Assembly: GCF_010093445.1 (NCBI RefSeq)
Contig: NZ_PDWW01000002.1
Coordinates: 124,001-188,000, forward strand
Reading direction: 5' to 3'
Source of the DNA: Pseudoxanthomonas japonensis
Lineage (GTDB): Bacteria > Pseudomonadota > Gammaproteobacteria > Xanthomonadales > Xanthomonadaceae
Length of the DNA stretch: 64,000 nt
The notes beneath the pieces were generated by a model. It was not told the DNA's origin. It saw only the letters and a list, made by a program, of their open reading frames with translations, and made no database searches. This document shows, one piece after another, positions 2,973 through 62,250 of this stretch. A program made the translations under genes and the position numbers. Position 1 is the first letter of the stretch. Each line of letters opens with the position of its first letter.

Positions 2973-4370
2973 ATGAGCCAGAAACAAGCGCAACGAAAAA
3001 AGAAGCAGGCCGACACCGCCGAACTGTCCGAAAGCTCGCTGCGGCGCTGGTTGAAGGAACGCAGCATCACCGAGGTCGAGTGTCTGGTGCCGGACATCAC
3101 CGGCAATGCGCGCGGCAAGATCATCCCGGCCGACAAGTTCAGCCACGACTACGGCACGCGCCTGCCGGAAGGCATCTTCGCCACGACCGTCACCGGCGAC
3201 TATCCGGACGATTACTACGAACTGACCTCGCCGTCGGACTCGGACATGTTCCTGCGTCCCGACCCGGACACGGTGCGGATGGTGCCGTGGGCCGCCGATC
3301 CCACCGCACAGGTCATCCACGACTGCTATACGAAGGAAGGCAAGCCGCACGAACTGGCGCCGCGCAACGTGTTGCGCCGCGTGCTGGCCGCCTACGAGAA
3401 GGAAGGCCTGCGCCCGGTCGTGGCGCCGGAGCTGGAATTCTTCCTGGTGCAGAAGAACACCGACCCCGACTTTCCGCTGCTGCCGCCGGCCGGCCGGTCC
3501 GGGCGACCCGAAACGGCGCGTCAGTCGTACTCGATCGACGCGGTCAACGAGTTCGACCCCATCCTCGACCTGATGTACGACTACTGCGAGGCGATGGAGC
3601 TGGACGTGGACACGCTGATCCACGAATCCGGTGCCGCGCAGCTCGAAGTCAACTTCACCCATGACGATGCGCTGTCGCGCGCCGACCAGGTATTCCTGTT
3701 CAAGCGCACCATGCGCGAGGCGGCGCTGCGCCACGGCGTGTACGCCACCTTCCTGGCCAAGCCGATGGAGAACGAGCCCGGCAGCGCCATGCATATCCAC
3801 CAGAGCCTGCTGGACATCAGGACCGGCCGCAACGTGTTCACCGGAAAGTCGGAAGGCAAGGGCAGCAAGCTGTTCGGGCACTACCTGGCGGGCCTGCAGA
3901 AGTACGTGCCGATGGCGATGGCGTTCTTCGGCCCCAACGTCAATTCCTACCGCCGGCTCGCGCTTGGCCAGGTGGCGCCGATCAACGTGCAGTGGGGCTA
4001 CGACAACCGCACCTGCGGCCTGCGCGTGCCGATGGACACGCCGGAGAACATGCGCGTGGAGAGTCGCTTCGCCGGTTCCGACGCCAACCCGTATCTCGCC
4101 ATGGCCGGCACGCTGGCCTGCGGCCTGCTCGGCATCCGCGAGCAGCTCAAGCCGACCGAACCGCTGGCCAGCAGCGCGCAGGACGTCGGCTTCGAACTGC
4201 CGCGTTCGCTGGGCGAGGCCCTGGACGAACTGGAGGGCTGCAAGCCGCTGCAGGAACTGATGGGCGCGCGCTTCGTGCGTGCGTACGTCTCGGTGAAGCG
4301 CAAGGAATACGAGACCTTCTTCCGCGTGATCAGCTCGTGGGAGCGGGAATTCCTGTTGTTGAACGTCTGA
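2973..4370 (+). CDS. spuB: Second glutamine synthetase-family polyamine ligase (SpuB type)
   Basis: 465 residues. A lysine-rich N-terminal tail of about 15 residues precedes the beta-grasp domain (LVPDITGNARGKI). Catalytic elements: HESGAAQLEVNF, AKPMENEPGSAMHIHQS and NRTCGLRVPMDTPENMRVE. It is paralogous to the divergent ligase at 526-1914 but clearly different in sequence, so this is an old duplication. Expected to gamma-glutamylate a polyamine; which one differs between paralogues in Pseudomonas and cannot be predicted here. Between spuA and spuC, with a type B repeat immediately downstream. Confidence 0.9.
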   Translation: MSQKQAQRKKKQADTAELSESSLRRWLKERSITEVECLVPDITGNARGKIIPADKFSHDYGTRLPEGIFATTVTGDYPDDYYELTSPSDSDMFLRPDPDTVRMVPWAADPTAQVIHDCYTKEGKPHELAPRNVLRRVLAAYEKEGLRPVVAPELEFFLVQKNTDPDFPLLPPAGRSGRPETARQSYSIDAVNEFDPILDLMYDYCEAMELDVDTLIHESGAAQLEVNFTHDDALSRADQVFLFKRTMREAALRHGVYATFLAKPMENEPGSAMHIHQSLLDIRTGRNVFTGKSEGKGSKLFGHYLAGLQKYVPMAMAFFGPNVNSYRRLALGQVAPINVQWGYDNRTCGLRVPMDTPENMRVESRFAGSDANPYLAMAGTLACGLLGIREQLKPTEPLASSAQDVGFELPRSLGEALDELEGCKPLQELMGARFVRAYVSVKRKEYETFFRVISSWEREFLLLNV

Positions 4371-4379
4371 CTGTTGTTT

Positions 4380-4501
4380 CCTTCTCCCGCCGGGAGAAGG
4401 TGGCGCGAAGCGCCGGATGAGGGTGCGGCGGAATCGGGATGGTTCACCACCGATGATTCCGCCGGACCCTCACCCCAACCCCTCTCCCGAAGGGAGAGGG
4501 G
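4380..4501. repeat. Type B palindromic repeat, copy 1
   Basis: Begins with CCTTCTCCCGCCGGGAGAAGG and ends with CCCTCTCCCGAAGGGAGAGG; each end is a hairpin. The inner parts (GGATGAGGGT and ACCCTCACCCC, and GGCGGAATC with GATTCCGCC) also pair, so the whole can fold as one long stem. Located between spuB and spuC. A second copy is at 28853-29034. Confidence 0.8.
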
Positions 4502-5975: not shown

Positions 5976-7091
5976 ATGAAGCTCAAGACCCTCACCGTCA
6001 TGCTGGCCGCCGCCGTGCTGGCCGCCTGTGGCGGCAAGGACGACAAGGCCGCCGACGGCGCATCGTCGAAGACGCTCAACGTCTACAACTGGTCCGACTA
6101 CATCGCCGAGGACACCATCCCGAACTTCGAGCAGCAGTCGGGCGTCAAGGTCACCTACGACGTGTTCGACAGCGACGAGATGGTCGAGACCAAGCTGCTG
6201 GCCGGCAGCAGCGGCTACGACGTGGTGGTGCCCTCGCTGAGCTTCCTCGGCCGGCAGATCCAGGCGGGCGTGTTCCTGCCGCTGGACAAGAGCAAGATCC
6301 CCAACCTGAAGAACGTCGACCCGAAGATGCTGGAGCGCATCGCGCTGCAGGATCCGGGCAACCAGTTCGCCGTGCCCTACCTGTGGGGCACCAGCGGCAT
6401 CGGCTACAACGTCGACAAGATCAAGGCCATCTTCGGCGACACCGCCGTCACCGGCAGCTGGGACGTGGTGTTCAAGCCGGAGAACGCGGCCAAGCTGAAG
6501 GACTGCGGCATCACCGTGCTGGACACGCCGTCGGAGCTGATCCCGATCGCGCTGAACTACCTGGGCGAGGATCCGCACAGTTTCGACCCGGCCGTCATCG
6601 ACAAGGCCGCGGCGCTGCTGAAGACAATCCGTCCGTACATCCGCAACTTCCACTCGTCCTCGTACATCAACGATCTGGCCAATGGCGACGTGTGCCTCGT
6701 GGTCGGCTGGTCGGGCGACATCATCCAGGCGCGCGACCGCGCCGCCGAGTCGGGCAATGGCGTGAACGTGGCGTACTCCATTCCGAAGGAAGGCGCGCCG
6801 CAGTGGTTCGACATGCTGGCCATCCCGAAGGACGCCAAGCACGTCGACAACGCCTACGCCTTCATCAACTACCTGCTGGACCCGAAGGTCGCGGCGGCCA
6901 ACACCAACTACGTGACCTATCCGAACCCGGTGCCGTCGTCGAAGCCGATGGTCGACAAGGCCATCGCGGATGATCCGACGATCTATCCGCCGGCGGACGT
7001 GGACGCGAAACTGTTCACCTTCGCGGTGCTGCCGCCGGAAGTGGATCGCCAGTACACGCGCATCTGGACGGAGCTGAAGACCGGGCGCTGA
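5976..7091 (+). CDS. spuD: Polyamine ABC transporter substrate-binding lipoprotein, copy 1
   Basis: 371 residues. Lipoprotein signal with lipobox VLAAC, acylated Cys18. Mature part is PotF/SpuD-like: NVYNWSDYIAED, VVGWSGDIIQARD, PQWFDMLAIPKDA, which carry the aromatic and acidic polyamine-binding residues. Captures putrescine or spermidine in the periplasm for the permease encoded downstream. The ATG at 5976 directly follows TGGAGA. It is closely similar along its whole length to the next gene, so the pair is a tandem duplication corresponding to spuD and spuE. Which copy binds which polyamine is not decided by these residues, since all are shared. Confidence 0.92.
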   Translation: MKLKTLTVMLAAAVLAACGGKDDKAADGASSKTLNVYNWSDYIAEDTIPNFEQQSGVKVTYDVFDSDEMVETKLLAGSSGYDVVVPSLSFLGRQIQAGVFLPLDKSKIPNLKNVDPKMLERIALQDPGNQFAVPYLWGTSGIGYNVDKIKAIFGDTAVTGSWDVVFKPENAAKLKDCGITVLDTPSELIPIALNYLGEDPHSFDPAVIDKAAALLKTIRPYIRNFHSSSYINDLANGDVCLVVGWSGDIIQARDRAAESGNGVNVAYSIPKEGAPQWFDMLAIPKDAKHVDNAYAFINYLLDPKVAAANTNYVTYPNPVPSSKPMVDKAIADDPTIYPPADVDAKLFTFAVLPPEVDRQYTRIWTELKTGR

Positions 7092-7290: not shown

Positions 7291-8412
7291 ATGAAACTGC
7301 GCGTACTGGCAACCACCCTGGCCCTCTGTACCCTTGCCGCCTGCGGCGGGAAATCCGGCAGTGACGGCGGCACCGACACCGGTGGCGCCAAGCAGGTCAA
7401 CGTCTACAACTGGTCGGACTACATCGCCGAGGACACCATCCCGAACTTCGAGAAGGCCACCGGCATCAAGGTGACCTACGACGTGTTCGACAGCAACGAA
7501 GTGCTGGAGACCAAACTGCTGGCCGGCAGCAGCGGCTACGACGTGGTGGTGCCGACGATGAACTTCCTCGGCCGCCAGATCCAGGCCGGCGTGTTCCTGC
7601 CGCTGGACAAGAGCAAGATCCCCAACTACGCCAACCTGGACCCCGCCGTCATGAAGCGGCTGGAGAACCAGGACCCCGGCAACCAGTACGCCATTCCGTA
7701 CATGTGGGGCACCACCGGCATCGGCTACAACGTCGACAAGGTCAAGGCCGCGTTCGGCAACACCGACATCGCCAACAGCCTGGACATCGTGTTCAAGCCG
7801 GAGAACATCAGCAAGCTCAAGGACTGCGGCGTGACGTTCCTCGATACGCCGTCCGAGATCATCCCGATCGCACTGAACTACCTGGGCGAGGATCCGAACA
7901 GCCACGATCCGGCGGTGATCGACAAGGCGGCCGCGCTGCTGAAGACGATCCGCCCGTACATCACCAACTTCCATTCCTCGCAGTACATCGACGCGATGGC
8001 CAACGGCGACACCTGCCTGGTGGTCGGCTGGTCCGGCGACATCATCCAGGCACGCGACCGCGCCGCCGACGCCAAGAACGGCGTCAACATCGCCTATGCC
8101 ATCCCGAAGGAGGGCGCACCGCAGTGGTTCGACATGCTGGCCATCCCGAAGGATGCCAAGCACCTGGACGAGGCGTACGCCTTCATCAACAACCTGCTCG
8201 ATCCGCAGGTGATGGCCAACAACTCCAACTTCATCAGCTATCCGAATGCCATTCCCAAGGCCAAGGCGCTGATGGACAAGTCGATCACCGACGATCCGAC
8301 CATCTACCCGACGCCCGAGGTGGAAGCCAAGCTGTTCACCTTCGCCATCATTCCGCCGGAAGTGGACCGCCAGTACACCCGCATCTGGACCGAACTGAAG
8401 ACCGGCAAGTAA
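7291..8412 (+). CDS. spuE: Polyamine ABC transporter substrate-binding lipoprotein, copy 2
   Basis: 373 residues, with signal and lipobox (TLAAC, Cys18) like its neighbour and the same NVYNWSDYIAED, GWSGDIIQARD and PQWFDMLAIPKDA binding segments. Its long conserved blocks (for example VDRQYTRIWTELKTG at the C-terminus) are nearly identical to copy 1, while the linker after the lipobox and the segment around residues 110-165 differ, probably tuning ligand choice. The ATG at 7291 follows GAGAGA; a TTG three bases upstream is not needed. Followed by a strong hairpin and then the ATPase gene. Confidence 0.92.
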   Translation: MKLRVLATTLALCTLAACGGKSGSDGGTDTGGAKQVNVYNWSDYIAEDTIPNFEKATGIKVTYDVFDSNEVLETKLLAGSSGYDVVVPTMNFLGRQIQAGVFLPLDKSKIPNYANLDPAVMKRLENQDPGNQYAIPYMWGTTGIGYNVDKVKAAFGNTDIANSLDIVFKPENISKLKDCGVTFLDTPSEIIPIALNYLGEDPNSHDPAVIDKAAALLKTIRPYITNFHSSQYIDAMANGDTCLVVGWSGDIIQARDRAADAKNGVNIAYAIPKEGAPQWFDMLAIPKDAKHLDEAYAFINNLLDPQVMANNSNFISYPNAIPKAKALMDKSITDDPTIYPTPEVEAKLFTFAIIPPEVDRQYTRIWTELKTGK

Positions 8413-11418: not shown

Positions 11419-11553
11419 CCGTCATCCCGGCGAACGCCGGGATCCTTGTTCCGTCATCCCAGCGAAAGCTGGGATCCACTTTGATTGTCGTGTGCACGTC
11501 CCGTAAATCAGGGGCAGAAGCAGGATGGATCCCAGCTTTCGCTGGGATGACGG
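11419..11553. repeat. Type A palindromic repeat, copy 2 (three arms)
   Basis: Three arms instead of two: CCGTCATCCCGGCG with its hairpin partner at 11419-11444, a second CCGTCATCCCAGCG at 11451-11477, and the inverted partner GGATCCCAGC continuing to GGGATGACGG at 11527-11553. The last two arms match each other exactly and enclose about 50 unique bases; the first is a different sequence type. It occupies half of the 256-bp gap between spuH and the dehydrogenase gene. Confidence 0.85.
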
Positions 11554-11655: not shown

Positions 11656-13017
11656 ATGACCGTCGAAACCGTCAATCCCGCGACCGGACAGGTCGAATAC
11701 CGCCACGAACTGATGACCGCCGCACAGGTGGATGCCGTACTCGCGGCATCCTCGCAGGCCTTCCCCGCGTGGTCCGCGCTGTCGCTCGCCGAACGCGGCA
11801 AGGTGATGCGCGCGGTCGGCGCCGAACTGCGCCGTCGCCGCGATGACATCCAGCGCATCATGACCGCCGAGATGGGCAAGCTGCGCAAGGAAGCCCTGGC
11901 CGAGGTCGACAAGTGCGCGGGCGCCTGCGACTACTACGCCGACCACGCCGCCGATTACCTGCAGGACCAGCCGGTCGCGACCGATGGCCAGCGCAGCTAC
12001 GTGCGCTACGAGCCGATTGGCTGCGTGCTGGCGGTGATGCCGTGGAACTTCCCGATCTGGCAGGTGTTCCGCTTCCTCGCGCCGGCCTTCATGGCTGGCA
12101 ACGTCGCGGTGCTCAAGCACGCGAGCAATGTGCCGCGCTGCGCGGACGTGATCGCCGAGGTGCTGAGGGCGGCGGGCCTGCCGGACGGCGTGTTCGGCGT
12201 GTTGCATATCGACAACGACCAGGCCGCCGAGGTGATCCGCGATGCGCGCGTCGCCGCGGTGACGCTGACCGGCAGCGAGCGGGCGGGGCGTTCGGTCGCC
12301 TCCAATGCCGGCGGCCAGCTGAAGAAGAGCGTGATGGAACTGGGTGGCAGCGATGCCTTCATCGTGCTCGACGACGCGGACCTGGAGAAGACGGTGGCCG
12401 GCGCGGTGGCCTCGCGCTTCGGCAATGCCGGGCAGACCTGCATCGCGGCCAAGCGCTTCATCGTGCAGGACGGCATCGCCGACGAGTTCGTGAAGCGCTT
12501 CGTCGAAGCCGCGGCGAAGCTGCAGCTCGGCGATCCGCAGGACGATGCGACCACACTGGCGCCGATGGCGCGGCAGGATCTGCGCGACGAACTGCACAGG
12601 CAGGTGCAGGCCAGCGTCGCGAAAGGCGCCAAGGTGTTGCTGGGTGGCGAACCCGATCCGTCGCACGCGGGCTATCCGGCGTCGATCCTCGATGCCGTGG
12701 CCCCGGGCATGCCGGCCTACGACGAGGAGCTGTTCGGCCCGGTCGCCAGCATCCTGCGGGTGAAGGACGATGCCGAGGCCGTGCGCGTGGCCAACGACAC
12801 CACCTTCGGCCTGGGCGGCAGCGTGTGGACGAAGGATGTCGAGCGCGGCAACCGCATCGCGCGCGAGTTGCAGGTCGGCGCCGCGTTCGTCAACGCGATC
12901 GTGCGCAGCGACGTGCGCCTGCCGTTCGGCGGCACCAAGCGCTCCGGCTTCGGGCGCGAACTGGCCGAACACGGCATCCACGAATTCATGAACATCAAGT
13001 CGGTCTATATCGCCTGA
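11656..13017 (+). CDS. sad: Succinate semialdehyde dehydrogenase, NAD(P)-dependent (YneI/Sad type)
   Basis: 453 residues. Aldehyde dehydrogenase superfamily with MPWNFPIWQ at the cofactor site, general base Glu228 in MELGGSDAF and nucleophile Cys262 in GQTCIAAKRF; the NAIVRSDVRLPFGG region closes the active site. Similar in length and motifs to YneI, which oxidises succinate semialdehyde to succinate. It would finish the path putrescine to GABA to succinate, although no GABA aminotransferase is in the window. 4-Aminobutanal is an alternative substrate. Probably transcribed with or after the spu genes, but the intervening repeat may separate expression. Confidence 0.85.
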   Translation: MTVETVNPATGQVEYRHELMTAAQVDAVLAASSQAFPAWSALSLAERGKVMRAVGAELRRRRDDIQRIMTAEMGKLRKEALAEVDKCAGACDYYADHAADYLQDQPVATDGQRSYVRYEPIGCVLAVMPWNFPIWQVFRFLAPAFMAGNVAVLKHASNVPRCADVIAEVLRAAGLPDGVFGVLHIDNDQAAEVIRDARVAAVTLTGSERAGRSVASNAGGQLKKSVMELGGSDAFIVLDDADLEKTVAGAVASRFGNAGQTCIAAKRFIVQDGIADEFVKRFVEAAAKLQLGDPQDDATTLAPMARQDLRDELHRQVQASVAKGAKVLLGGEPDPSHAGYPASILDAVAPGMPAYDEELFGPVASILRVKDDAEAVRVANDTTFGLGGSVWTKDVERGNRIARELQVGAAFVNAIVRSDVRLPFGGTKRSGFGRELAEHGIHEFMNIKSVYIA

Positions 13018-19506: not shown

Positions 19507-20112
19507 TCAGGCCTCGCGCAGCGCGGTATCGCGCATCAGGCGTTCGAACACGCGGAACACGTCCGCATCGATCTTCTCGTCCTGCTCCGCATGCAGGATG
19601 CGCATCGCCGCGTCGTGCGCGCGTCCTTCGGCATACGGACGCCGCGTCGTCATGGCATCGTAGCTGTCGGCCACGCGCAGGATGCGCGCGCCCAGCGGGA
19701 TGGCGGCCCCGGAAAGGCCGTCGGGATAGCCGCTGCCGTCGATGGCTTCGTGGTGATGGCGGATCAGCGTGGCGACCGCATTCGCATGGGGATGCCCGCT
19801 TGCCAGGAAGATCCGTTCGCCGAGTTCGCTGTGTGCCTGGATCGACGGCCAGTCCTCGTCGGCGACCGGCCCGGTATGCAGCAACACGCGGTCCGGCACG
19901 CCGATCTTGCCGACGTCGTGGAAATGCGCGGCGAGCTCCAGCTGTTCGAGCTGGTCCGCATCCAGGTCGAAGCACTGTCCCAGCGTCCGCGCGATGCGAC
20001 CGGTACGGTCGCAGTGGCCGCGCGTGTAGGCATCGCGCACTTCGATGGCCAGGGCCAGCGCTTCCAGGGAACAGGCAATGTCGCTGAAGTCCGGGGCGGG
20101 GTCGAAGGTCAC
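19507..20112 (-). CDS. Solitary HD-GYP domain protein (cyclic di-GMP phosphodiesterase family)
   Basis: 201 residues made almost only of an HD-GYP domain: HDVGK at 65-69, HHHEAIDGSGYP at 119-130, then LGARILRVADSYDAM. No receiver, PAS or other sensor domain is present, unlike RpfG. Family role: hydrolysis of cyclic di-GMP; the metal ligands and GYP are intact, so activity is plausible. Some stand-alone HD-GYP proteins act on other dinucleotides. Lies 49 bp downstream of mfd on the same strand. Confidence 0.88.
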   Translation of the reverse strand: MTFDPAPDFSDIACSLEALALAIEVRDAYTRGHCDRTGRIARTLGQCFDLDADQLEQLELAAHFHDVGKIGVPDRVLLHTGPVADEDWPSIQAHSELGERIFLASGHPHANAVATLIRHHHEAIDGSGYPDGLSGAAIPLGARILRVADSYDAMTTRRPYAEGRAHDAAMRILHAEQDEKIDADVFRVFERLMRDTALREA

Positions 20113-20161
20113 GGGCTTTCTCGGAAGGAAAGGGGAGGGGAGGTGCTCGTCGTGCGTGGGC

Positions 20162-23100
20162 TCAACCCGGCGCCAACGTCATCAGCAGCGCCTTCGCCGC
20201 ATTGAAGCGGTCGGGCGCGTCCGGCAGCGGCACCTTGATGCGCAGCTTGTCGGGTCCGTCCATGGTGTACAGCTTGGGTTGCTTCTGGATCAGCTGGATC
20301 ACCGCCATCGGGTCGATCTTCGGCTTGGCCTCGAACACGATGCGGCCCCCGTGCTCGCCGAGCTCCAGCTTGCGGATGCCCATGTCGTTCGCGGCCAGTT
20401 TCAGTTCCGCGGTGGCGAACAGGTACTTGGCCGGATCCGGCAGCAAACCGAAGCGGTCGATCATCTCCACTTGCAGGTCGCGCAGTTCCTCCTTGTCGCG
20501 CGCGCTGCTGATGCGCTTGTACAGCGTCAGGCGCGTGTGCACGTCGGGCAGGTAGTCGTCGGGAATCAGCGACGGCACGTTCAGTTCGACCTCGGCGCCG
20601 CGTCGCTCCTGGCCCAGGTCGACGTCGGGCAGGTGGCCGGCCTTGATCGAGCGCACCGCGCGTTCCAGCAGTTCGGTGTACAGGCTGAAGCCGACCTCGG
20701 CCATCTGCCCGCTCTGGTCTTCGCCCAGCAGTTCGCCGGCGCCACGGATCTCCAGGTCGTGCGTGGCGAGGGTGAAGCCTGCGCCCAACTCGTCCATCGA
20801 CGCGATCGCTTCCAGCCGGCGTTGCGCGTCGGCGGTGATGCTGCGCTTGTCCGGCACCACCAGGTAGGCATAGCTGCGATGGTGCGAACGGCCGACGCGG
20901 CCGCGCAGCTGGTGCAGCTGCGCCAGGCCGAACTTGTCGGCGCGGTTCATGATGATGGTGTTGGCGTTGGGGATGTCGATGCCCGACTCGATGATGGTCG
21001 TGCACAGCAGCACGTTGAAGCGCTGCTTCTGGAAATCCAGCATCACCTGTTCCAGCTCGCGCTCCGGCATCTGTCCGTGCGCCACGCCGATGCGCGCTTC
21101 CGGCACCAGCTCCTGCAGCTCGCGCTGCATGCGGCCGATGCTCTCGACGTCGTTGTGCAGGAAGTACACCTGGCCGCCACGCGACAGCTCGCGCTGGAAG
21201 GCTTCCTTCAGCAGCGCCGCATCCCACGGGGTCACGAAGGTCTGCACCGCCATGCGGTTGGCCGGCGGCGTGGCGATGATGGACAGGTCACGCAGACCGG
21301 CCATCGCCATGTTGAGCGTGCGCGGGATCGGCGTGGCGGTCAGCGTCAGCAGATGCACGTTGGCGCGCAGCGCCTTCAGGGCTTCCTTCTGGCGCACGCC
21401 GAAGCGCTGCTCTTCGTCCACTATCACCAGGCCGAGGTCCTTGAACTTCACGTCCGGCTGCAGCAGGCGGTGCGTGCCGACGATGACGTCCAGCGTGCCC
21501 TCGGCCAGCTTCTCCAGTTCCGCCTTGATCTCCTTGGCGGTCTTGAAGCGCGACAGCACCTCGACCTTCAACGGCCAGTCGGCGAAGCGGTCGCGGAAGT
21601 TGCGGTAGTGCTGCTCGGCCAGCAGCGTGGTCGGCACCAGCACGGCGACCTGCTTGCCGGCGCTGGCAGCGGCGAAGGCGGCGCGCACGGCGACTTCCGT
21701 CTTGCCGAAGCCGACGTCGCCGCACACCACGCGGTCCATCGGCTGGCTGCTGGCCAGGTCGCGGATCACCGATTCGATCGCGTGATGCTGGTCGGGCGTC
21801 TCCTCGAACGGGAAGCCGGCGGCGAACGGTTCGTACATCGCGCGGTCCAGGTGCAGGGCGAGGCCGGCACGGGCCTGCCGGCGCGCCTGGATCTCCAGCA
21901 GTTCGGCGGCAACGTCGCGGACTTTTTCCGCTGCCTTCTTCTTGGCCTTCGCCCAGGCTTCGCCGCCGAGCGAATGCAGCGGCGCGGTTTCCACCGACGC
22001 GCCCGAGTAGCGGCTGATCAGGTGCAGTTGCGCGACCGGCACATACAGGCGGTCGCCCTTGGCGTATTCGATCTCGAGGAACTCGCCCGGCATGCCGCCC
22101 ACGTCCATCGCGATCAGGCCGCGATAACGGCCGACACCGTGATCCTCGTGGACGATGGGCGCGCCCTCGGTCAGTTCACCGAGGTCGCGGATGATCGCTT
22201 CCGGCTCGCGGCCGGTGCGCTTGCGGCGGTGCGCCTGCGTGGCGCGCTCCGGGAACAGCTGGCGCTCGGTGAGTACCGCGATGCGCGGATCGTCCAGCGC
22301 GAAGCCGTCGGCCAACGGGGCGACAGCGATGGCGAATCTGACCGCGTCATTCCCGCGCAGGCGGGAACCCAGTGCCTTTGCGCTTTCGTCGGTACCGCCC
22401 AACGTCGCTGGGTCCCCGCCTGCGCGGGGATGACGATCTGAAACAAACTCGGTGAAACTTCCGATCACCTCCGGCTTCAACTCCGCCGCCTGCAGCACTT
22501 CCAGCAAGGCCTCGCGACGACCGGGCGAGTCGGCGGCGATCAGCACGCGCCCGGGGTAGTGGCCGAGGAACGACTTCAGCGCCTCGCCGGCGGGTGCATC
22601 CTTCGCCGCCACCGGCAGCGGCGGCAACGGCTGTTCGCCCAGCGGCAGTGCATCGGCGTGACGGCTGTGCTGCGCACCGCAGACTTCGATGCGGGCGCGC
22701 TGGTTGAGCTGCTCGCGCAGGCCGTCCGGCGACAGGTACAGCTCGTCCGGCGGCAGCAGCGGACGTTCGATGTCGTGGCGGCGCTGCTCGTAGCGGTTGC
22801 GCGTCTGTGCCCAGAACGCCTCGGCCGCCTCACCGAAGCCCTCGGTCAGCACGGGCAACGCGGTCTGCTGCAGGTAGTCGAACAGGGTCGAGGTCTGGTC
22901 GAAGAACAGCGGCAGGTAGTACTCCACGCCGGCCGGCGCCAGGCCGGACTTCAGGTCCTGGTACAGCGCGCTGCGACGCGTGTCGACATCGAAGCGGTCG
23001 CGCAGCAGCGTCATCGCGCGCTCGACCGAGCGTTCGTCCAGCGGCACTTCGCGGCCGGGCAGCAGCTGCACGGCATCCGTCTTGTCGAGCGAGCGCTGGC

Positions 23101-23725
23101 TTTCCGGGTCGAAGTGACGGATCGAGTCGATGGTGTCGTCCAGCAGTTCGATGCGCAGCGGCGCCTCGGCGCCCATCGGGTAGACATCCAGCAGGCCGCC
23201 ACGCACGGCGAAGTCGCCTGGGTCCAGTACCTGCGGCACGTGACGGTAGCTTGCCGCTTCCAGCCGGCGCTTCTCGGCGTCGAAGTCCAGCCGCTGGCCA
23301 ACGCGGTAGTCGAAGCTGCCGCCGACGATGTGGCGCAGCGGCGACAGCCGTTGCATCAGGGTCTGCACCGGCACGATCACGATGCCGCGCACCAGCGTGG
23401 GCAGGCGGTGCAAGGCGGCCAGGCGCTGCGAGACGATGTCCGGATGCGGACTGAACTGGTCGTAGGGCAGGGTTTCCCAGTCGGGAAACGGCACCACGGG
23501 CAGGTCGGCGTCCGTGCCGAGCAGCGTATGCAGGTCGGCTTCCAACTGGTGCGCTTCGTGGTTGTCGCGCGCTACAACCAGCAGTGGGCCGTCGTGCGCA
23601 TGGGCGGCAGCGGCGATGGACCACGCCAGCGCGGTCGGCGAGGCAGGTGCGCGCCACCAGGCGCGGGACTGGCCGCCACGGGGCAGCGGGGGAACGGGCA
23701 GGGGGCTTTTCTGGGCGTCGGTCAT
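20162..23725 (-). CDS. mfd: Transcription-repair coupling factor, with in-frame repeat insertion
   Basis: 1187 residues from the ATG at 23725 (another in-frame ATG is at 23740). UvrB-like N-terminal domains (DWETLPYDQFSPH; RGGLLDVYPMG), RNA-polymerase interaction domain around residue 545 (IEYAKGDRLYVPVAQLHL), and an SF2 translocase with Walker A GDVGFGKTE (Lys675), DEEQ in VIVDEEQRFG and QLRGRVGR. Removes stalled RNA polymerase and recruits UvrA. Oddity: residues 431-461 (PRAGGDPATLGG and the following stretch to LRGND) are encoded by a type A repeat at 22345-22435, in a linker before RFAIAVAPLADGFAL. The reading frame stays open, and the protein is about 30 residues longer than I would expect for this family. 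Confidence 0.95.
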   Translation of the reverse strand: MTDAQKSPLPVPPLPRGGQSRAWWRAPASPTALAWSIAAAAHAHDGPLLVVARDNHEAHQLEADLHTLLGTDADLPVVPFPDWETLPYDQFSPHPDIVSQRLAALHRLPTLVRGIVIVPVQTLMQRLSPLRHIVGGSFDYRVGQRLDFDAEKRRLEAASYRHVPQVLDPGDFAVRGGLLDVYPMGAEAPLRIELLDDTIDSIRHFDPESQRSLDKTDAVQLLPGREVPLDERSVERAMTLLRDRFDVDTRRSALYQDLKSGLAPAGVEYYLPLFFDQTSTLFDYLQQTALPVLTEGFGEAAEAFWAQTRNRYEQRRHDIERPLLPPDELYLSPDGLREQLNQRARIEVCGAQHSRHADALPLGEQPLPPLPVAAKDAPAGEALKSFLGHYPGRVLIAADSPGRREALLEVLQAAELKPEVIGSFTEFVSDRHPRAGGDPATLGGTDESAKALGSRLRGNDAVRFAIAVAPLADGFALDDPRIAVLTERQLFPERATQAHRRKRTGREPEAIIRDLGELTEGAPIVHEDHGVGRYRGLIAMDVGGMPGEFLEIEYAKGDRLYVPVAQLHLISRYSGASVETAPLHSLGGEAWAKAKKKAAEKVRDVAAELLEIQARRQARAGLALHLDRAMYEPFAAGFPFEETPDQHHAIESVIRDLASSQPMDRVVCGDVGFGKTEVAVRAAFAAASAGKQVAVLVPTTLLAEQHYRNFRDRFADWPLKVEVLSRFKTAKEIKAELEKLAEGTLDVIVGTHRLLQPDVKFKDLGLVIVDEEQRFGVRQKEALKALRANVHLLTLTATPIPRTLNMAMAGLRDLSIIATPPANRMAVQTFVTPWDAALLKEAFQRELSRGGQVYFLHNDVESIGRMQRELQELVPEARIGVAHGQMPERELEQVMLDFQKQRFNVLLCTTIIESGIDIPNANTIIMNRADKFGLAQLHQLRGRVGRSHHRSYAYLVVPDKRSITADAQRRLEAIASMDELGAGFTLATHDLEIRGAGELLGEDQSGQMAEVGFSLYTELLERAVRSIKAGHLPDVDLGQERRGAEVELNVPSLIPDDYLPDVHTRLTLYKRISSARDKEELRDLQVEMIDRFGLLPDPAKYLFATAELKLAANDMGIRKLELGEHGGRIVFEAKPKIDPMAVIQLIQKQPKLYTMDGPDKLRIKVPLPDAPDRFNAAKALLMTLAPG
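22345..22435. repeat. Type A palindromic repeat inside mfd, copy 3
   Basis: Left arm CGTCATTCCCGCG continuing CAGGCGGGAACCC, right arm GGGTCCCCGCCTG continuing CGCGGGGATGACG, with 39 unique bases between. Architecture and arm sequence match the intergenic copies. In mfd orientation the arms encode RHPRAGGDP and SRLRGND. At 91 bp it is not a multiple of three, so the flanking bases were adjusted or duplicated to hold the frame. Confidence 0.9.
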
Positions 23726-23831
23726 GGGTACATAAAACAACGGCAGCGCCGGACACCGTGGGGTGCCCAGCGCGAAGGGACGCGCAGTTTACCAAGCAGG
23801 CCCGTGCAGGCCGCTCACACGCCGCAACGGA

Positions 23832-24104
23832 TCATTCCGCCGTCAGCGGGTCGATCACCTCGGCGACGACGGAAATACGGTCGACGGGGAAACCGCCACG
23901 ACGCGAATGCTCCAGCACAAGGTCTTCGTTCGGCGCGCGGTACACGCAATAGATCCTGTCGTCGGTAACGTAGCTGTGTTCCCACTGCACCCGTGGGCCC
24001 AGCTCGTCCAGGGCGCGGCATGACGCCTGCGAGACGGCCTTCAGTTCGGCCGGCGTCATCAGGCCTGCGCCTTCGACGTCGCGTTCGATCAGGTAACGGG
24101 GCAT
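23832..24104 (-). CDS. DUF4242 domain-containing protein
   Basis: 90 residues covering one complete small domain: MPRYLIERDVEGAG at the start, VQWEHSYVTDDRIYCVYRA in the middle and HSRRGGFPVDRI near the end, the characteristic DUF4242 pattern. Cytoplasmic; function not established. The start at 24104 is where family members begin; the longer frame to 24152 is unsupported. On the same strand as mfd, 106 bp upstream of it. Confidence 0.85.
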   Translation of the reverse strand: MPRYLIERDVEGAGLMTPAELKAVSQASCRALDELGPRVQWEHSYVTDDRIYCVYRAPNEDLVLEHSRRGGFPVDRISVVAEVIDPLTAE

Positions 24105-42159: not shown

Positions 42160-44247
42160 TCACACCTTCGCCAGCAACGTGGCCTGTGCCGAATGCGGCG
42201 TGTCGTCGCCGGGGGTCAATTTGAGGTAGCTGCCGTCGGCCTGCAGTTCCCAGGCATTGCAGTTGTCGTCCAGGTAGTTCTGCAGGCCCTCCTTGAACAC
42301 GCGCGCGGCGAGGTCCTTGTCGAGGATCGGGAAGCAGGTTTCCACGCGATGCAGCAGGTTGCGTTCCAGCCAGTCGGCGCTGGCGCAGTACAGCTCCGGC
42401 GCGCCATCGTTGCCGAACCAGTAGAGCCGGCTGTGTTCGAGGAAGCGTCCGACGATGGAGCGCACGCGGATGTTGTCGGAGATGCCGGGGACACCCGGCC
42501 GCAGCGCACAGGCGCCGCGCACGATCAGGTCGATCCGCACGCCGACCTGCGACGCCGCGTACAGCGCCCGGATGATGCGCGGTTCGTTGATGGCGTTGAT
42601 CTTGGCGATGATGCGCGCCGGCTTGCCGGCCCTGGCGAGCTTGGCCTCGCGCTCAATCTTCTTGATCAGGCCCGGGTGCAGGGTGAAGGGCGATTGCAGC
42701 AGGCGCTTGAGCTTGGTCGTGGGCGCCAGGCCGGACAACTGCTGGAAGAGCAGGTGCACGTCGTTGCCGATGTCCTGGTCGGCGGTGATCAGGCCGATGT
42801 CGGTGTACGCGCGCGCGGTGCCGCTGTGGTAGTTGCCGGTGCCCAGGTGCACGTAGCGGCGCAGCTTGCGGCCCTCGCGCCGCACGATCAGCAGCATCTT
42901 GGCGTGCGTCTTGTAGCCGACGACGCCGTACACGACCTGCGCGCCGGCTTCCTGCAAGCGGTCGGCGACGCCGAGGTTGGCGTCCTCGTCGAAGCGCGCA
43001 CGCAGTTCCACCACCACGGTCACGTCCTTGCCGTTGCGCGCGGCCTGCACCAGCGCTTCGACGATGGCCGAATCCTTGCCGGTGCGGTACAGCGTCTGCT
43101 TGATCGCCAGCACGTCGGGATCCACCGCTGCCTGCTTGATGAGTTCCAGCACGGCGGCGAACGAGTCGAAGGGGTGGTGCAGCAACACGTCGTCGTCGGC
43201 CACCTTCTCGAAGATCGCCTCGCTGTCGCGTAGCGTGCGCGGGGTGAAGGCGGGGTATTTCAGTTCGGGGCGCTGCACCAGGTCGTAGACCTGGATGACG
43301 CGGTTGAGGTTGACCGGGCCGTTGATCGGGTACACCGCGTTGTCGGGCAGCGCGAAGTTCTGCAGCAGCTGGCGCACGATGGGCTTGGGGCAGTCGTGCG
43401 CGATCTCCAGCCGCACCGCGGGACGGTAGCCGCGGCCGACGAGTTCGTCGCGCAACGCCAGTGCCAGGTTCTCCACTTCCTCCTCATCGACCACCACTTC
43501 GGAGTTGCGGGTCACGCGGAACTGGTAGGAACCCTTCACTTCCATTCCCGGGAACAGTTCGTCCACGAACACCGACAGCACCGACGACAGCAGCACGAAG
43601 TCGTTCTCGCCACCGGACACGCGCTGCGGCAGGTGGATGATGCGCGGTAGCGAGCGCGGCGCGCGCACGATGGCCAGGTGCCCGGCGCGGCCGAACGCGT
43701 CCTTGCCCTTCAACACCACCACGATGTTGAGCGACTTGTTGAGGATCTTCGGGAACGGGTGCGCCGGATCCAGGCCGAGCGGCGACAGCACCGGCATGAT
43801 CTCGTTGCGGAAGTAGGCGCGCAGCCAGCGCGTCTGCCGCGCGTTCCAGCTGTCCCGGCCGAACACGCGCACGCCGGCCTCGGCCAGGCCGGGGCGCAGC
43901 ACGTCGTTCCAGCACTTGTACTGCGCGTCGACCAGTTCGGCGGCGCGATCGTGGATCTTGTTGAGCACGGTGGCCGGACTCATGCCGTCCGCGCCGGGCG
44001 GCAGGCCGAAATCGAGCGCATGCCGCACTGTGGCGGCGCGGATCTCGAAGAACTCGTCGAGGTTGGTGCAGGAGATGCAGAGGAAGCGCAGGCGCTCCAG
44101 CAGCGGCACCGAGGGATCCTGCGCCTGCGCCAGCACGCGGAAGTTGAAGTCCAGCTGGGACAGCTCGCGGTTGAGGTAGAGCGCCGGGTCGCGCAGGGCG
44201 TCTTCGCCGGTGGCAGTGGCGGGCGTCGTGTCCAGGGCGGCGTTCAT
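42160..44247 (-). CDS. ppk1: Polyphosphate kinase 1
   Basis: 695 residues. N-terminal NRELSQLDFNFRVLAQA, and the catalytic core with YVHLGTGNYHSGTARAYTDIGL, containing the His that is phosphorylated, and the later TCFPILDKDLA region. Makes polyphosphate from ATP reversibly. The ATG at 44247 overlaps the phoR stop (ATGA), so it is translated with phoR. The reading frame is open upstream through phoR, but that is shadow, not extension. Confidence 0.95.
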   Translation of the reverse strand: MNAALDTTPATATGEDALRDPALYLNRELSQLDFNFRVLAQAQDPSVPLLERLRFLCISCTNLDEFFEIRAATVRHALDFGLPPGADGMSPATVLNKIHDRAAELVDAQYKCWNDVLRPGLAEAGVRVFGRDSWNARQTRWLRAYFRNEIMPVLSPLGLDPAHPFPKILNKSLNIVVVLKGKDAFGRAGHLAIVRAPRSLPRIIHLPQRVSGGENDFVLLSSVLSVFVDELFPGMEVKGSYQFRVTRNSEVVVDEEEVENLALALRDELVGRGYRPAVRLEIAHDCPKPIVRQLLQNFALPDNAVYPINGPVNLNRVIQVYDLVQRPELKYPAFTPRTLRDSEAIFEKVADDDVLLHHPFDSFAAVLELIKQAAVDPDVLAIKQTLYRTGKDSAIVEALVQAARNGKDVTVVVELRARFDEDANLGVADRLQEAGAQVVYGVVGYKTHAKMLLIVRREGRKLRRYVHLGTGNYHSGTARAYTDIGLITADQDIGNDVHLLFQQLSGLAPTTKLKRLLQSPFTLHPGLIKKIEREAKLARAGKPARIIAKINAINEPRIIRALYAASQVGVRIDLIVRGACALRPGVPGISDNIRVRSIVGRFLEHSRLYWFGNDGAPELYCASADWLERNLLHRVETCFPILDKDLAARVFKEGLQNYLDDNCNAWELQADGSYLKLTPGDDTPHSAQATLLAKV

Positions 44248-45584
44248 GCGTGCTGGCTGTCCGTAGTGAGGAGGGCGGGAGCGTCGAGGCGCGGTTCGAC
44301 GCGATCGGCACCGAAATGGATGGAGAACACGCTGCCCTGGCCGACCTCGCTTTCGATCTCGAGGCGCGCCTGGTGCAGGTTCAGCACGTGCTTGACGATC
44401 GACAGGCCCAGGCCGGTGCCACCGCTCTCGCGCGAGCGGCTGGTGGAGACGCGGTAGAAGCGTTCGGTGATGCGCGGCAGGTGAGCGGTCGGGATGCCGT
44501 AGCCGGTGTCGCGCACGCTGAGCACGGCGCCGTCGCCCTCGCGCGCGAAGCGCACCGTGATCGTGCCGCCGGCCGGGGTGTAGCGCACGGCGTTGCTGAC
44601 CAGGTTGGAGAACGCGCTGTGCAGTTCCTTGTTGGAGCCGGACAGATCCACGTTGGCCTCGTCCTGGATCACGACCGTGTGGCGGCGCTGGCTCAGCGCT
44701 TCGGCTTCGCGCCGCAGCGTGGCCAGCATCGGCGCCATGGCCACGTTCTCGTCGGGCAGGCTGTCCTGCGCTTCCAGCCGCGACAGCGTCAGCAGGTCTT
44801 CCACCAGTTGGGTCATGCGCTGCGACTGCTTCTGCATCTCCGACAGCATGGGTGCCCAGTCCGGGTATTCGGTGGGCTCCAGCATGTCCAGGTATCCGTG
44901 CACGACGGTCAGCGGCGTGCGCAGTTCGTGCGAGACGTTGGCGACGAAGTCGCGACGCATCTGCTCCAGCCGCAGCAGCTTGCTGACGTCGCGCGCGACC
45001 AGCAGCCAGTACTCGTCGGAGTAGGGGATCAGCCGCAGGTTGAGGCGCAGGTGGGGATCCACCGGCGAGGCGGCATCCAGCATCGGTTCGGCATTGCGCC
45101 CGCCGGCCAGCCAGTGCGACATCGGCAGCGGCTGCAGGCGGTCGCCGACCGGGGCGCCGATGTCGGCAGGGTACTGCAGGCCCAGCAGGGTGCCGGCGGC
45201 CTTGTTGAACCACTGCACGCGCTGGCTGTTGCGTTCCACCACCACCACGCCGTCAGGCAGCGCGGCGGCGGCGGCGCGGTAGGCGCGCAGCATGTCGAGC
45301 AGGCGGCGCTTGCGCGTGCGCATCTCGGCCTGGCCGCGGAACAGCAGGCGGTCGAGCTCGTTCCAGACGCCACGGCCCCGGGCCGGTTCCATGCGCTGGC
45401 GGGCGGTCAGGCGCAGCAGGACCTTGCGCAGCCGCCAGTAGTGCCATGCGACCACGCCGAGCGCGGCGACGGTGACGACCGGCCAGACGTGGCCCAGCAA
45501 CAGCCCGGCCACGACCGCCAGCGCGAGGATCAGCGCCAGCTGGCCGAGCGTCTTGAACCACGCGGAGCGGATGTCGTGGGGCAT
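44244..45584 (-). CDS. phoR: Phosphate regulon sensor kinase PhoR
   Basis: 446 residues. Two close membrane segments (14-31 and 35-50) with almost no periplasmic loop, as in PhoR. A PAS domain follows (VVVVERNSQRVQWFNKAAG), then His219 in FVANVSHELRTPL, and ATPase boxes FSNLVSNAVRYTP, RDTGYGIP and GTGLGLSIVKH. Phosphorylates PhoB at low phosphate, with the Pst/PhoU complex as input; those genes are outside the window. Separated from phoB by a type A repeat rather than directly adjoining. Confidence 0.95.
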   Translation of the reverse strand: MPHDIRSAWFKTLGQLALILALAVVAGLLLGHVWPVVTVAALGVVAWHYWRLRKVLLRLTARQRMEPARGRGVWNELDRLLFRGQAEMRTRKRRLLDMLRAYRAAAAALPDGVVVVERNSQRVQWFNKAAGTLLGLQYPADIGAPVGDRLQPLPMSHWLAGGRNAEPMLDAASPVDPHLRLNLRLIPYSDEYWLLVARDVSKLLRLEQMRRDFVANVSHELRTPLTVVHGYLDMLEPTEYPDWAPMLSEMQKQSQRMTQLVEDLLTLSRLEAQDSLPDENVAMAPMLATLRREAEALSQRRHTVVIQDEANVDLSGSNKELHSAFSNLVSNAVRYTPAGGTITVRFAREGDGAVLSVRDTGYGIPTAHLPRITERFYRVSTSRSRESGGTGLGLSIVKHVLNLHQARLEIESEVGQGSVFSIHFGADRVEPRLDAPALLTTDSQHA

Positions 45585-45644: not shown

Positions 45645-45756
45645 CCGTCATCCCGGCGCACGCCAGGATCCAGGGTGAGTTGTGTCGTTCGTCGCTTCGG
45701 CGCTGGGCAGGCGACGTCAAGATCAGGATGAATCCCGGCGTGCGCCGGGATGATGG
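45645..45756. repeat. Type A palindromic repeat, copy 4
   Basis: Left arm CCGTCATCCCGGCG continuing CACGCCAGGATCC; right arm GAATCCCGGCGTG continuing CGCCGGGATGATGG, with about 58 unique bases between. One arm base pair differs (CCAGG against CCGGG), and the right end reads GATGATGG rather than GATGACGG. It fills half of the 222-bp gap between phoB and phoR. Confidence 0.82.
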
Positions 45757-54581: not shown

Positions 54582-54658
<77 letters not shown>

Positions 54659-54714
54659 GCAAGATGCACGGCCCACGTGTTCCGGCACGACGGGAATGCG
54701 ACAATCCGGACCGG

Positions 54715-54791
54715 GCGCCCGTAGCTCAACCGGATAGAGCACCGGCCTTCTAAGCCGGCGGTTACAGGTTCGAGTCCTGTCGGGCGCGCCA
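54715..54791 (+). tRNA. tRNA-Arg (anticodon TCT)
   Basis: 77 bases. Acceptor GCGCCCG/CGGGCGC, anticodon stem CCGGC/GCCGG with loop CTTCTAA, encoded CCA. Reads AGA and AGG, rare codons in this GC-rich genome. Confidence 0.97.
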
Positions 54792-54827
54792 ACACCGGTG
54801 CGGTCCGGGAGGATGCAGGTTTCAGTG

Positions 54828-54904
54828 GTGGCTGTAGCTCAGCTGGTTAGAGTACTGGATTGTGATTCCAGATGTCGGGGGTTCGAGTCCCCTCAGCCAC
54901 CCCA
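54828..54904 (+). tRNA. tRNA-His (anticodon GTG)
   Basis: 77 bases from GTGGCTG; the G at 54827 before it can pair with C at 54901 as the extra -1 G specific to tRNA-His. Anticodon loop TTGTGAT between CTGGA and TCCAG. Encoded CCA. Confidence 0.97.
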
Positions 54905-54979
54905 CTGATTCAAGGGCACCCGCGGTGCGGGGGTTCACAGAAAAAAGCGATGCGGTTACACTACGCGTCTGATGTTTCG

Positions 54980-55055
54980 GGGCCGTTAGCTCAGTTGGTA
55001 GAGCAGTTGACTCTTAATCAATAGGTCCAAGGTTCGAATCCTTGACGGCCCACCA
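54980..55055 (+). tRNA. tRNA-Lys (anticodon CTT)
   Basis: 76 bases. Acceptor GGGCCGT/ACGGCCC, anticodon stem GTTGA/TCAAT with loop CTCTTAA, encoded CCA. Reads AAG. Last gene of the operon, followed by a terminator. Confidence 0.97.
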
Positions 55056-55063
55056 AACCCGAG

Positions 55064-55092
55064 ACGCCCGGCCGAAAGCCGGGCGTTTTTTT
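55064..55092 (+). terminator. Rho-independent terminator of the tRNA operon
   Basis: ACGCCCGGC and GCCGGGCGT around CGAAA, running directly into a T run of seven. The clearest terminator in the window. Confidence 0.92.
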
Positions 55093-55093
55093 A

Positions 55094-55124
55094 TTGCCGG
55101 CCGCGCCGCGTCGGCCGCTACAAT
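55094..55124 (+). promoter_or_regulatory. Promoter of tRNA-Leu
   Basis: A good -10, TACAAT (55119-55124), 12 bases before the tRNA. The best -35 is TTGCCG (55094-55099) at a long 19-base spacing, so this part is weak. Starts just after the upstream terminator. Confidence 0.5.
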
Positions 55125-55136
55125 GCGACGCGCACT

Positions 55137-55222
55137 GCGAAAGTGGCGGAATTGGTAGACGCACTGGATTTAGGTTCCAGCGGGTAACCCCCGTGAGGGT
55201 TCGAGTCCCTCCTTTCGCACCA
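55137..55222 (+). tRNA. tRNA-Leu (anticodon TAG)
   Basis: 86 bases including a long variable arm (GCGGGTAACCCCCGT). Acceptor GCGAAAG/CTTTCGC, anticodon loop TTTAGGT between CTGGA and TCCAG, encoded CCA. Reads CUA and other CUN codons. Confidence 0.97.
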
Positions 55223-62015: not shown

Positions 62016-62090
62016 GGGTGCTTAGCTCAGCGGTAGAGCGTCTCCCTTACACGGAGAGGGTCGGGGGTTCGAAACCCTCAGCACCCACCA
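62016..62090 (+). tRNA. tRNA-Val (anticodon TAC)
   Basis: 75 bases. Acceptor GGGTGCT/AGCACCC, anticodon loop CTTACAC between TCTCC and GGAGA, encoded CCA. Lies 35 bp after hupB and may be cotranscribed with it. Confidence 0.97.
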
Positions 62091-62173
62091 CATCGGGGCG
62101 GTGCAGGTTTAAAAATTTGTGGGATGGTCTAGCGGAAAGCGCTGAAATCGTCTTACAATGTTCGTCTCAGCGC

Positions 62174-62250
62174 GGAGTGGTAGTTCAGTCGGTTAGAATG
62201 CTGGCCTGTCACGCCGGAGGTCGCGGGTTCGAGTCCCGTCCACTCCGCCA
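62174..62250 (+). tRNA. tRNA-Asp (anticodon GTC)
   Basis: 77 bases. Acceptor GGAGTGG/CCACTCC, anticodon loop CTGTCAC between CTGGC and GCCGG, discriminator G and encoded CCA. A -10-like TACAAT lies at 62154-62159, without a clear -35. Confidence 0.97.

Follow-up and report, generated by a model that had tools for sequence, protein, structure and literature searches.

Introduction

A REPIN is made up of a core and a pair of inverted REP units.

The CGTC-tagged REPs of Di Nocera et al. (2013; PMC3733652) are described in the main text of that paper as having an 8-9 bp stem with complementary A and T first, a loop of 4-5 nt and a CCA-like tail. According to the same text they occur inside genes, many of them for DNA replication and repair; in recB, different REPs lie at about the same site in X. 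campestris and in X. oryzae; and the intragenic R. conorii repeats of the CGTC class correspond to RPE-4 and RPE-6 (PMC3733652). In-frame palindromes in genes have so far been known mostly as scattered cases.

This report concerns one such palindrome in mfd of Pseudoxanthomonas japonensis, in a stretch of 64,000 nucleotides analysed as a whole (the window). The original prediction, made from the letters of the window, regarded a case of this kind as little described. That was half right, because CGTC repeats in coding sequences and in repair genes, the recB case included, were published in 2013 (PMC3733652); the word "mfd" has 0 occurrences in the main text of that paper, and no report on repeats in the Mfd D3 loop was found in the open-licence literature.

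Results

The 91-bp element in mfd

The gene, the element and its parts were as follows.

20162 to 23725, minus strand: mfd, transcription-repair coupling factor, 1187 aa plus stop (translation, NCBIfam, Pfam)
22436 to 22444, minus strand: left junction, codons GTT TCA GAT, residues 428-430
22345 to 22435, minus strand: type A element, 91-bp CGTC-tagged palindromic dimer encoding residues 431-461, RHPRAGGDPATLGGTDESAKALGSRLRGND(A)
22408 to 22435, minus strand: arm 1 in coding orientation, with CGTC tag, 8-position stem (first position mismatched), 4-nt loop and CCA tail; score 25.5 against the consensus
22373 to 22407, unstranded: variable core separating both arms, varying among own-genome copies
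22345 to 22372, plus strand: arm 2, read on the opposite strand, with CGTC tag, stem, loop and CCA tail; score 20.5 against the consensus
22337 to 22344, minus strand: right junction, ahead of the conserved FAIAVAPL

The coordinates, the in-frame position and the residue range of the palindrome had been predicted correctly; the Mfd stretch that contains the insert peptide reads RHPRAGGDPATLGGTDESAKALGSR. The inverted arms (22345-22383 and 22397-22435) were 85% complementary over 39 nt, and the RNA fold, calculated for 111 nt (the element plus 10 nt per side), reached -70.4 kcal/mol vs. -41.7 +/- 3.6 for 200 shuffles, none of which (0/200) folded equally well. The CGTC end tag was present on both units, each starting CGTCAT, which by eye read ATCCCCGC-GCAG-GCGGGGAC-CCA and ATTCCCGC-GCAG-GCGGGAAC-CCA. 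In both, the GCAG loop and the CCA tail fitted the CGTC-REP pattern, and 7 of 8 stem positions paired, with an A-C mismatch at position 1. The GTAG tag of REPINs was absent from the element, and an Rfam scan of 20000-24000 returned nothing close to the gathering score. Four of the six reading frames were open through the element, and the frame used was polar (mean hydropathy -1.1).

Mfd is otherwise intact, as had been foreseen for the open frame and the Mfd motifs: it passed the NCBIfam cut-offs (TIGR00580, 1044 vs. 800; PRK10689, 1397.5 vs. 1329), and the five usual Pfam domains (UvrB_inter, RID, DEAD, Helicase_C and TRCF) were detected. PF21132 (MFD_D3) matched at profile positions 1-47 of 73 only (residues 386-432), so the insert splits domain D3 and does not lie in a linker between domains, where it had been placed. 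Aligned to E. coli Mfd (PDB alignment), the query matched up to residue 430 and again from 469, and residues 431-468 had no partner. In an AlphaFold2 model built with 30 relatives, poor overall (mean pLDDT 56.8) and better in this part of D3, the insert fell between helix 424-428 and strand 464-468; pLDDT was 26-31 by block for residues 431-460, which had no secondary structure, and 80-87 for the blocks 381-430 and 461-490. The insert is predicted by this model to be a disordered loop inside D3.

The segment was absent in the closest relatives, L035 and L036, as expected from the prediction. The joining of the flanks was less exact than had been supposed: compared with L035 and L036 the net gain was 90 nt, not 91, and the few bases next to the element differed. 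Residue 463 was Arg AGA in the window mfd and CGC in the aligned relatives L017, L020, L035 and L036. In L036 the linker, though without an insert, has the sequence cgcgcaggcggcgaa, similar to an A arm (cgcgcaggcggggac). The likeness, absent from L035, may reflect a deletion remnant or chance. The sequence TCAGAT flanks the window copy on both sides; a target-site duplication is not claimed, since inspection of L023 and L026 by eye showed nothing of the kind.

Copies in the own genome and other repeats in the window

A search with the 91-bp element, suggested by the original prediction, gave at least 45 matches (E <= 0.001) in the 4.08-Mb own genome, at no fewer than 31 distinct places with mfd included (40 of 57 first-look candidates scored, strands merged into places, several places consisting of a single arm). 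The best non-mfd copy among those scored was 87% identical over query positions 1-91 (E 2.9e-22), and the next 83%. Most of the 15 loci inspected (L001 being mfd, L015 a single arm) started with CGTC, ended with GACG and had dissimilar flanks; two local clusters had partly common surroundings (L004, L006 and L008 on C3; L002 and L005 on C10). Since its fold lay far below the shuffles and it matched elsewhere in its own genome, the window element is a dispersed repeat and not a product of chance. A tandem-repeat or low-complexity origin was ruled out because the dispersed copies have arms and ends in common.

Other repeats in the window were as follows.

407 to 499, unstranded: CGTC-type pair of a related class, with other arms
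4380 to 4501, plus strand: full type B repeat directly after ORF 2973-4370, both B arms matched (scores 41.5 and 32.5)
11421 to 11551, unstranded: CGTC-type repeat cluster, upstream of the aldehyde dehydrogenase ORF 11656-13017
45647 to 45754, unstranded: CGTC-type repeat pair, outside the PhoR-like ORF 44244-45584

The arm sequences at three other CGTC repeats of the window were CCTGCG, CCGGCG and CCAGCG. The claim that type A is otherwise intergenic in the window was checked in part: the CGTC-type repeats at 11421-11551 and 45647-45754 lay outside the aldehyde dehydrogenase and PhoR-like ORFs, and a scan of 4 further adjacent ORFs gave no Pfam match. The type B repeat at 4380-4501 is of the kind that occupies the Mfd loop in sister species. 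The window also contained a 300-nt direct duplication (6069-6368 and 7390-7689; 83% identity), probably inside neighbouring duplicated genes, and two tRNA clusters (54582-55222 and 62016-62250; Pro, Arg, His, Lys, Leu, then Val, Asp).

The same Mfd loop across the family

A recognised repeat was found in the Mfd loop in 43 of 176 family linkers (16 of 37 in the genus and 27 of 139 outside), a repeat being called where the consensus-arm score exceeded those of all 5280 single-base shuffles (30 per linker), with the classifying consensus arms partly drawn from the same linkers and B1 close to L021. Within the genus, 37 of 38 linkers were read by pattern (L048 was missed by the pattern and labelled empty in the tree); outside it, 189 genomes were searched, 4 had no match, 45 were left out (not listed or at a contig end), and 139 of the 140 linkers fetched were read (L269 left out). 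Among the 43 carriers the best-matching arm was A in 7, C in 6 and B, counted in both orientations, in 30. Short linkers numbered 110 of 176, and window-type arms were the best match in 7 of 176; the segment is thus not common to most xanthomonad Mfd, in line with the prediction. A further 24 of 176 linkers were long without a recognised repeat, so the loop also lengthens by other means.

Types A and C are both CGTC-tagged, with CCCGCG and CCCGGC arms, respectively. Type B starts with CCTTCTCCC, ends with GAGAGGGG and is without a terminal CGTC tag; to judge by these features it is a separate, unnamed repeat, apparently unrelated to the CGTC repeats. It was inserted forward in, for example, L018, L137 and L140, and inverted in L027 and L174. 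Lone repeat units occupied the loop in L028 and L034.

In 62 full-length Mfd compared with L036, the D3 loop was the sole internal site with inserts of at least 15 aa (32 of 62), the next-largest internal insert being 10 aa; positions to about residue 25 were excluded because stop-to-stop frames run upstream there, and this set, like the 65-sequence set used for the tree, was enriched in insert carriers because the family search ranked uninterrupted matches first. Because several repeats occupy the same loop in many relatives, the loop is a recurrent site and no isolated curiosity; the original prediction was right as to a real in-frame element and did not include this recurrence. Comparable in-frame inserts in assemblies of many species speak against processing of the segment out of mRNA or protein and against an assembly artefact; the very stable hairpin might suggest this rival, which is extremely improbable. 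To our knowledge there is no processing system for such repeats.

A fixed frame as proof of selection was rejected: among the A and C dimers displayed, the left arm of L184 was read in another frame, so frame use is a tendency only.

Some loops were built in further ways. The A inserts of L026 and L145, from different genera, had a like interruption of the right arm, giving the peptides RGALNSRTAGHDD and RGVFNSEAGHDE; this is a variant with a nested piece. In L049 and L325 the loop was lengthened beside the palindrome by short tandem units (GGAEKGGAGKGG... and RHPGHDRHPGHD), as if free to expand. L037 had a B insert and about 26 extra aa close to the right arm (AARPGPRVDAGALSDPRTDGSQADRFAPKGEGL).

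Type A was dispersed in the own genome, in G037 and in G029, and 102 of 198 family genomes had a match to it; for type B the number was 128 of 198 (4 candidates scored per genome in both searches, so that genomes and not copies are counted). Inverted B was dispersed in 5 of 5 genomes searched. The A, B and inverted B inserts of the Mfd loop are accordingly mobile repeats, more than look-alike linkers.

Turnover among relatives

On a FastTree tree built from 65 Mfd proteins after deletion of the linker, parsimony required no fewer than 22 state changes, a count that does not separate gain from loss and in which states were labelled by peptide pattern (L135 and L157 labelled empty though their arm scores exceeded the shuffles). 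Unlike kinds stood side by side: A in L026 beside inverted B in L027 (support 99), A in L023 beside C in L049 (support 94), and C in L134 beside B in L140 and L142 (support 100). The window (L016, type A) stood beside the empty L035 and L036 (support 85), followed by B carriers. The first B arm was 93% identical between groups vs. 78% for the flanking codons and was higher in 61 of 61 pairs (12 hand-chosen carriers; identity maybe inflated, recognisable arms only). The loop fillings look recent and repeated.

A single ancient insertion, inherited by the family and later diverged or lost, would agree with the type B inserts at a nearly identical codon in several genera, but it is contradicted by three dissimilar kinds in both orientations, by B arms more alike than their flanks, and by the window copy, which was nearer to copies in its own genome (87% and 83% identical) than to the G109 A insert that served as query (77%). 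It is very improbable, and for all kinds together already contradicted; B alone might have entered once, early, in a single clade (g7, g32 or a part of the genus).

Recombination could also spread inserts, either through exchange of mfd alleles among species or through conversion from copies elsewhere in the genome. L022 carries B within a clade of empty sites, with an insert peptide resembling those of L018 and L019, and allele transfer between species could have added tree changes of this kind; allele transfer by itself, however, does not account for sister species with different kinds, and recombination as the general explanation is quite unlikely.

Other genes and other families

Among 20 long frames outside mfd, hand-picked from the lists of two 7-genome searches, 4 were other recognised proteins with the element peptide inside; the searches covered only the peptide frame seen in Mfd and thus left out inserts in any other frame. 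Two were RlmKL from two genera (L274, 1756-4008, minus strand; L286, 1621-4374, plus strand), with an A-type peptide at one and the same loop, directly ahead of CNPPYDARL, which is a second recurrent site. The others were RecD of G005 (L277, 1276-3867, plus strand) and an Lhr-type helicase of G109 (L278, 4416-9314, minus strand; identified by Pfam Lhr domains and under the NCBIfam cut-offs), both with an in-frame A-type insert. The remaining 16 of 20 frames had no Pfam match at E <= 1e-5 and are probably spurious.

The Mfd region was found in 120 of 299 genomes of the order, in which two main families are recognised (PMC7470346). From other families, 25 loops were taken (13 chosen for a query match across the loop, L325 partial, and 12 others), of which 24 were readable (L338 was not). 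C-like peptides occurred in the Mfd loop of L303, L306, L307 and L325; the symmetric peptide LPL.AGGGREG...NPPL.AGEG in L322, L324, L327 and L329; and the symmetric peptide SGER.G.R...LTP.LSPG.AGGEG in L328, L330 and L331. These 11 repeat-like inserts of 25 loops all belonged to group f12, probably Rhodanobacteraceae, and all were among the 13 chosen, so 11/25 is not a rate. A second family of the order thus seems to have repeat-like inserts in the Mfd loop.

Discussion

The preferred explanation, which is highly probable, is that a CGTC-type REP dimer was copied into mfd and kept there, in a permissive D3 loop that has been filled repeatedly in relatives. The source would be a small non-autonomous mobile repeat with about 30 genomic places; the CGTC repeats are apparently without a dedicated transposase, according to the abstract of PMC3733652. 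Such repeats may land broadly, with selection purging nearly all hits in genes, and among the Mfd compared only the D3 loop would take long insertions, provided that they are in frame, polar and unstructured. The mfd copy would then have been retained because it landed in a D3 loop that tolerates extra residues, and its translation would add some 30 residues to Mfd as a charged, disordered loop that hardly affects the protein. The D1-D3 module of Mfd moves through tens of angstroms when Mfd loads, tethered to the RNAP-binding domain by a 25-aa linker (PMC7864632); a solvent loop there may therefore be harmless. Inserts of the loop would be gained, swapped and lost over short times. Comparison of the linker sequences shows that relatives have had this loop filled over and over, by at least three kinds of repeat and in both orientations.

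Alternatively, the D3 loop could be a true target, to which repeats are steered, or in which they are kept since a hairpin or a charged loop tunes Mfd, through mfd translation or D1-D3 contacts, so that different repeats serve the same purpose. One place filled many times by different repeats, the repeat-like inserts in a second family, the RecD, Lhr-type helicase and RlmKL carriers, which agree with the excess of repair genes published in the main text of PMC3733652, and the D1-D3 movement, in which a loop could matter (PMC7864632), all point that way. On the other side, 110 of 176 linkers were short, so the insert is not needed; the unlike repeats, orientations and lengths and the predicted disorder speak against a specific function; and inspection by eye of the junctions of the Mfd inserts revealed neither a common target sequence nor a target duplication. 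A true target is rather unlikely. An extended form, unlikely when taken as a whole, would make the D3 loop a selected or targeted site across the order and the unrelated palindromes exchangeable spacer cassettes that alter Mfd output; within this conjecture, they might act through an mRNA hairpin or a charged loop, and hence on repair or mutation rates, and RecD, the Lhr-type helicase and RlmKL might be further targets.

With a permissive loop as the preferred reading, the D3 loop is a natural place for insertions in Mfd. With three or more kinds of repeat in one loop across many species, it becomes possible to test whether the invasion of coding sequence by REPs is leftover tolerance or something targeted or useful, and the many seemingly recent events are material for how CGTC repeats move and leave. 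In-frame palindromes in repair genes were known; what appears to be new is the scale, together with the mixing of unlike repeats and their turnover at a single loop.

Compared with the CGTC REPs, the window element has the CGTC end tag, a stem in which 7 of 8 positions pair, a 4-nt loop, a CCA tail and paired units, and is likewise dispersed and intragenic in a DNA-repair gene; the Mfd loop differs from what the main text on those repeats describes in holding two CGTC arm types and the untagged B, in many genera. With REPINs and the GTAG REPs that accompany RAYT transposases it shares two inverted units and a core, but its tag is CGTC and not GTAG. The Rickettsia palindromic elements (RPE-4, RPE-6 and RPE-1) are likewise in-frame palindromes in ORFs that likely encode functional proteins (PMC3733652, main text). 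The Mfd insert is an in-frame insertion in a conserved protein and in this works like an RPE, with no membership claimed. As far as that source describes them, RPEs occupy many genes of one genus, whereas the Mfd repeats have hit one loop repeatedly across a family.
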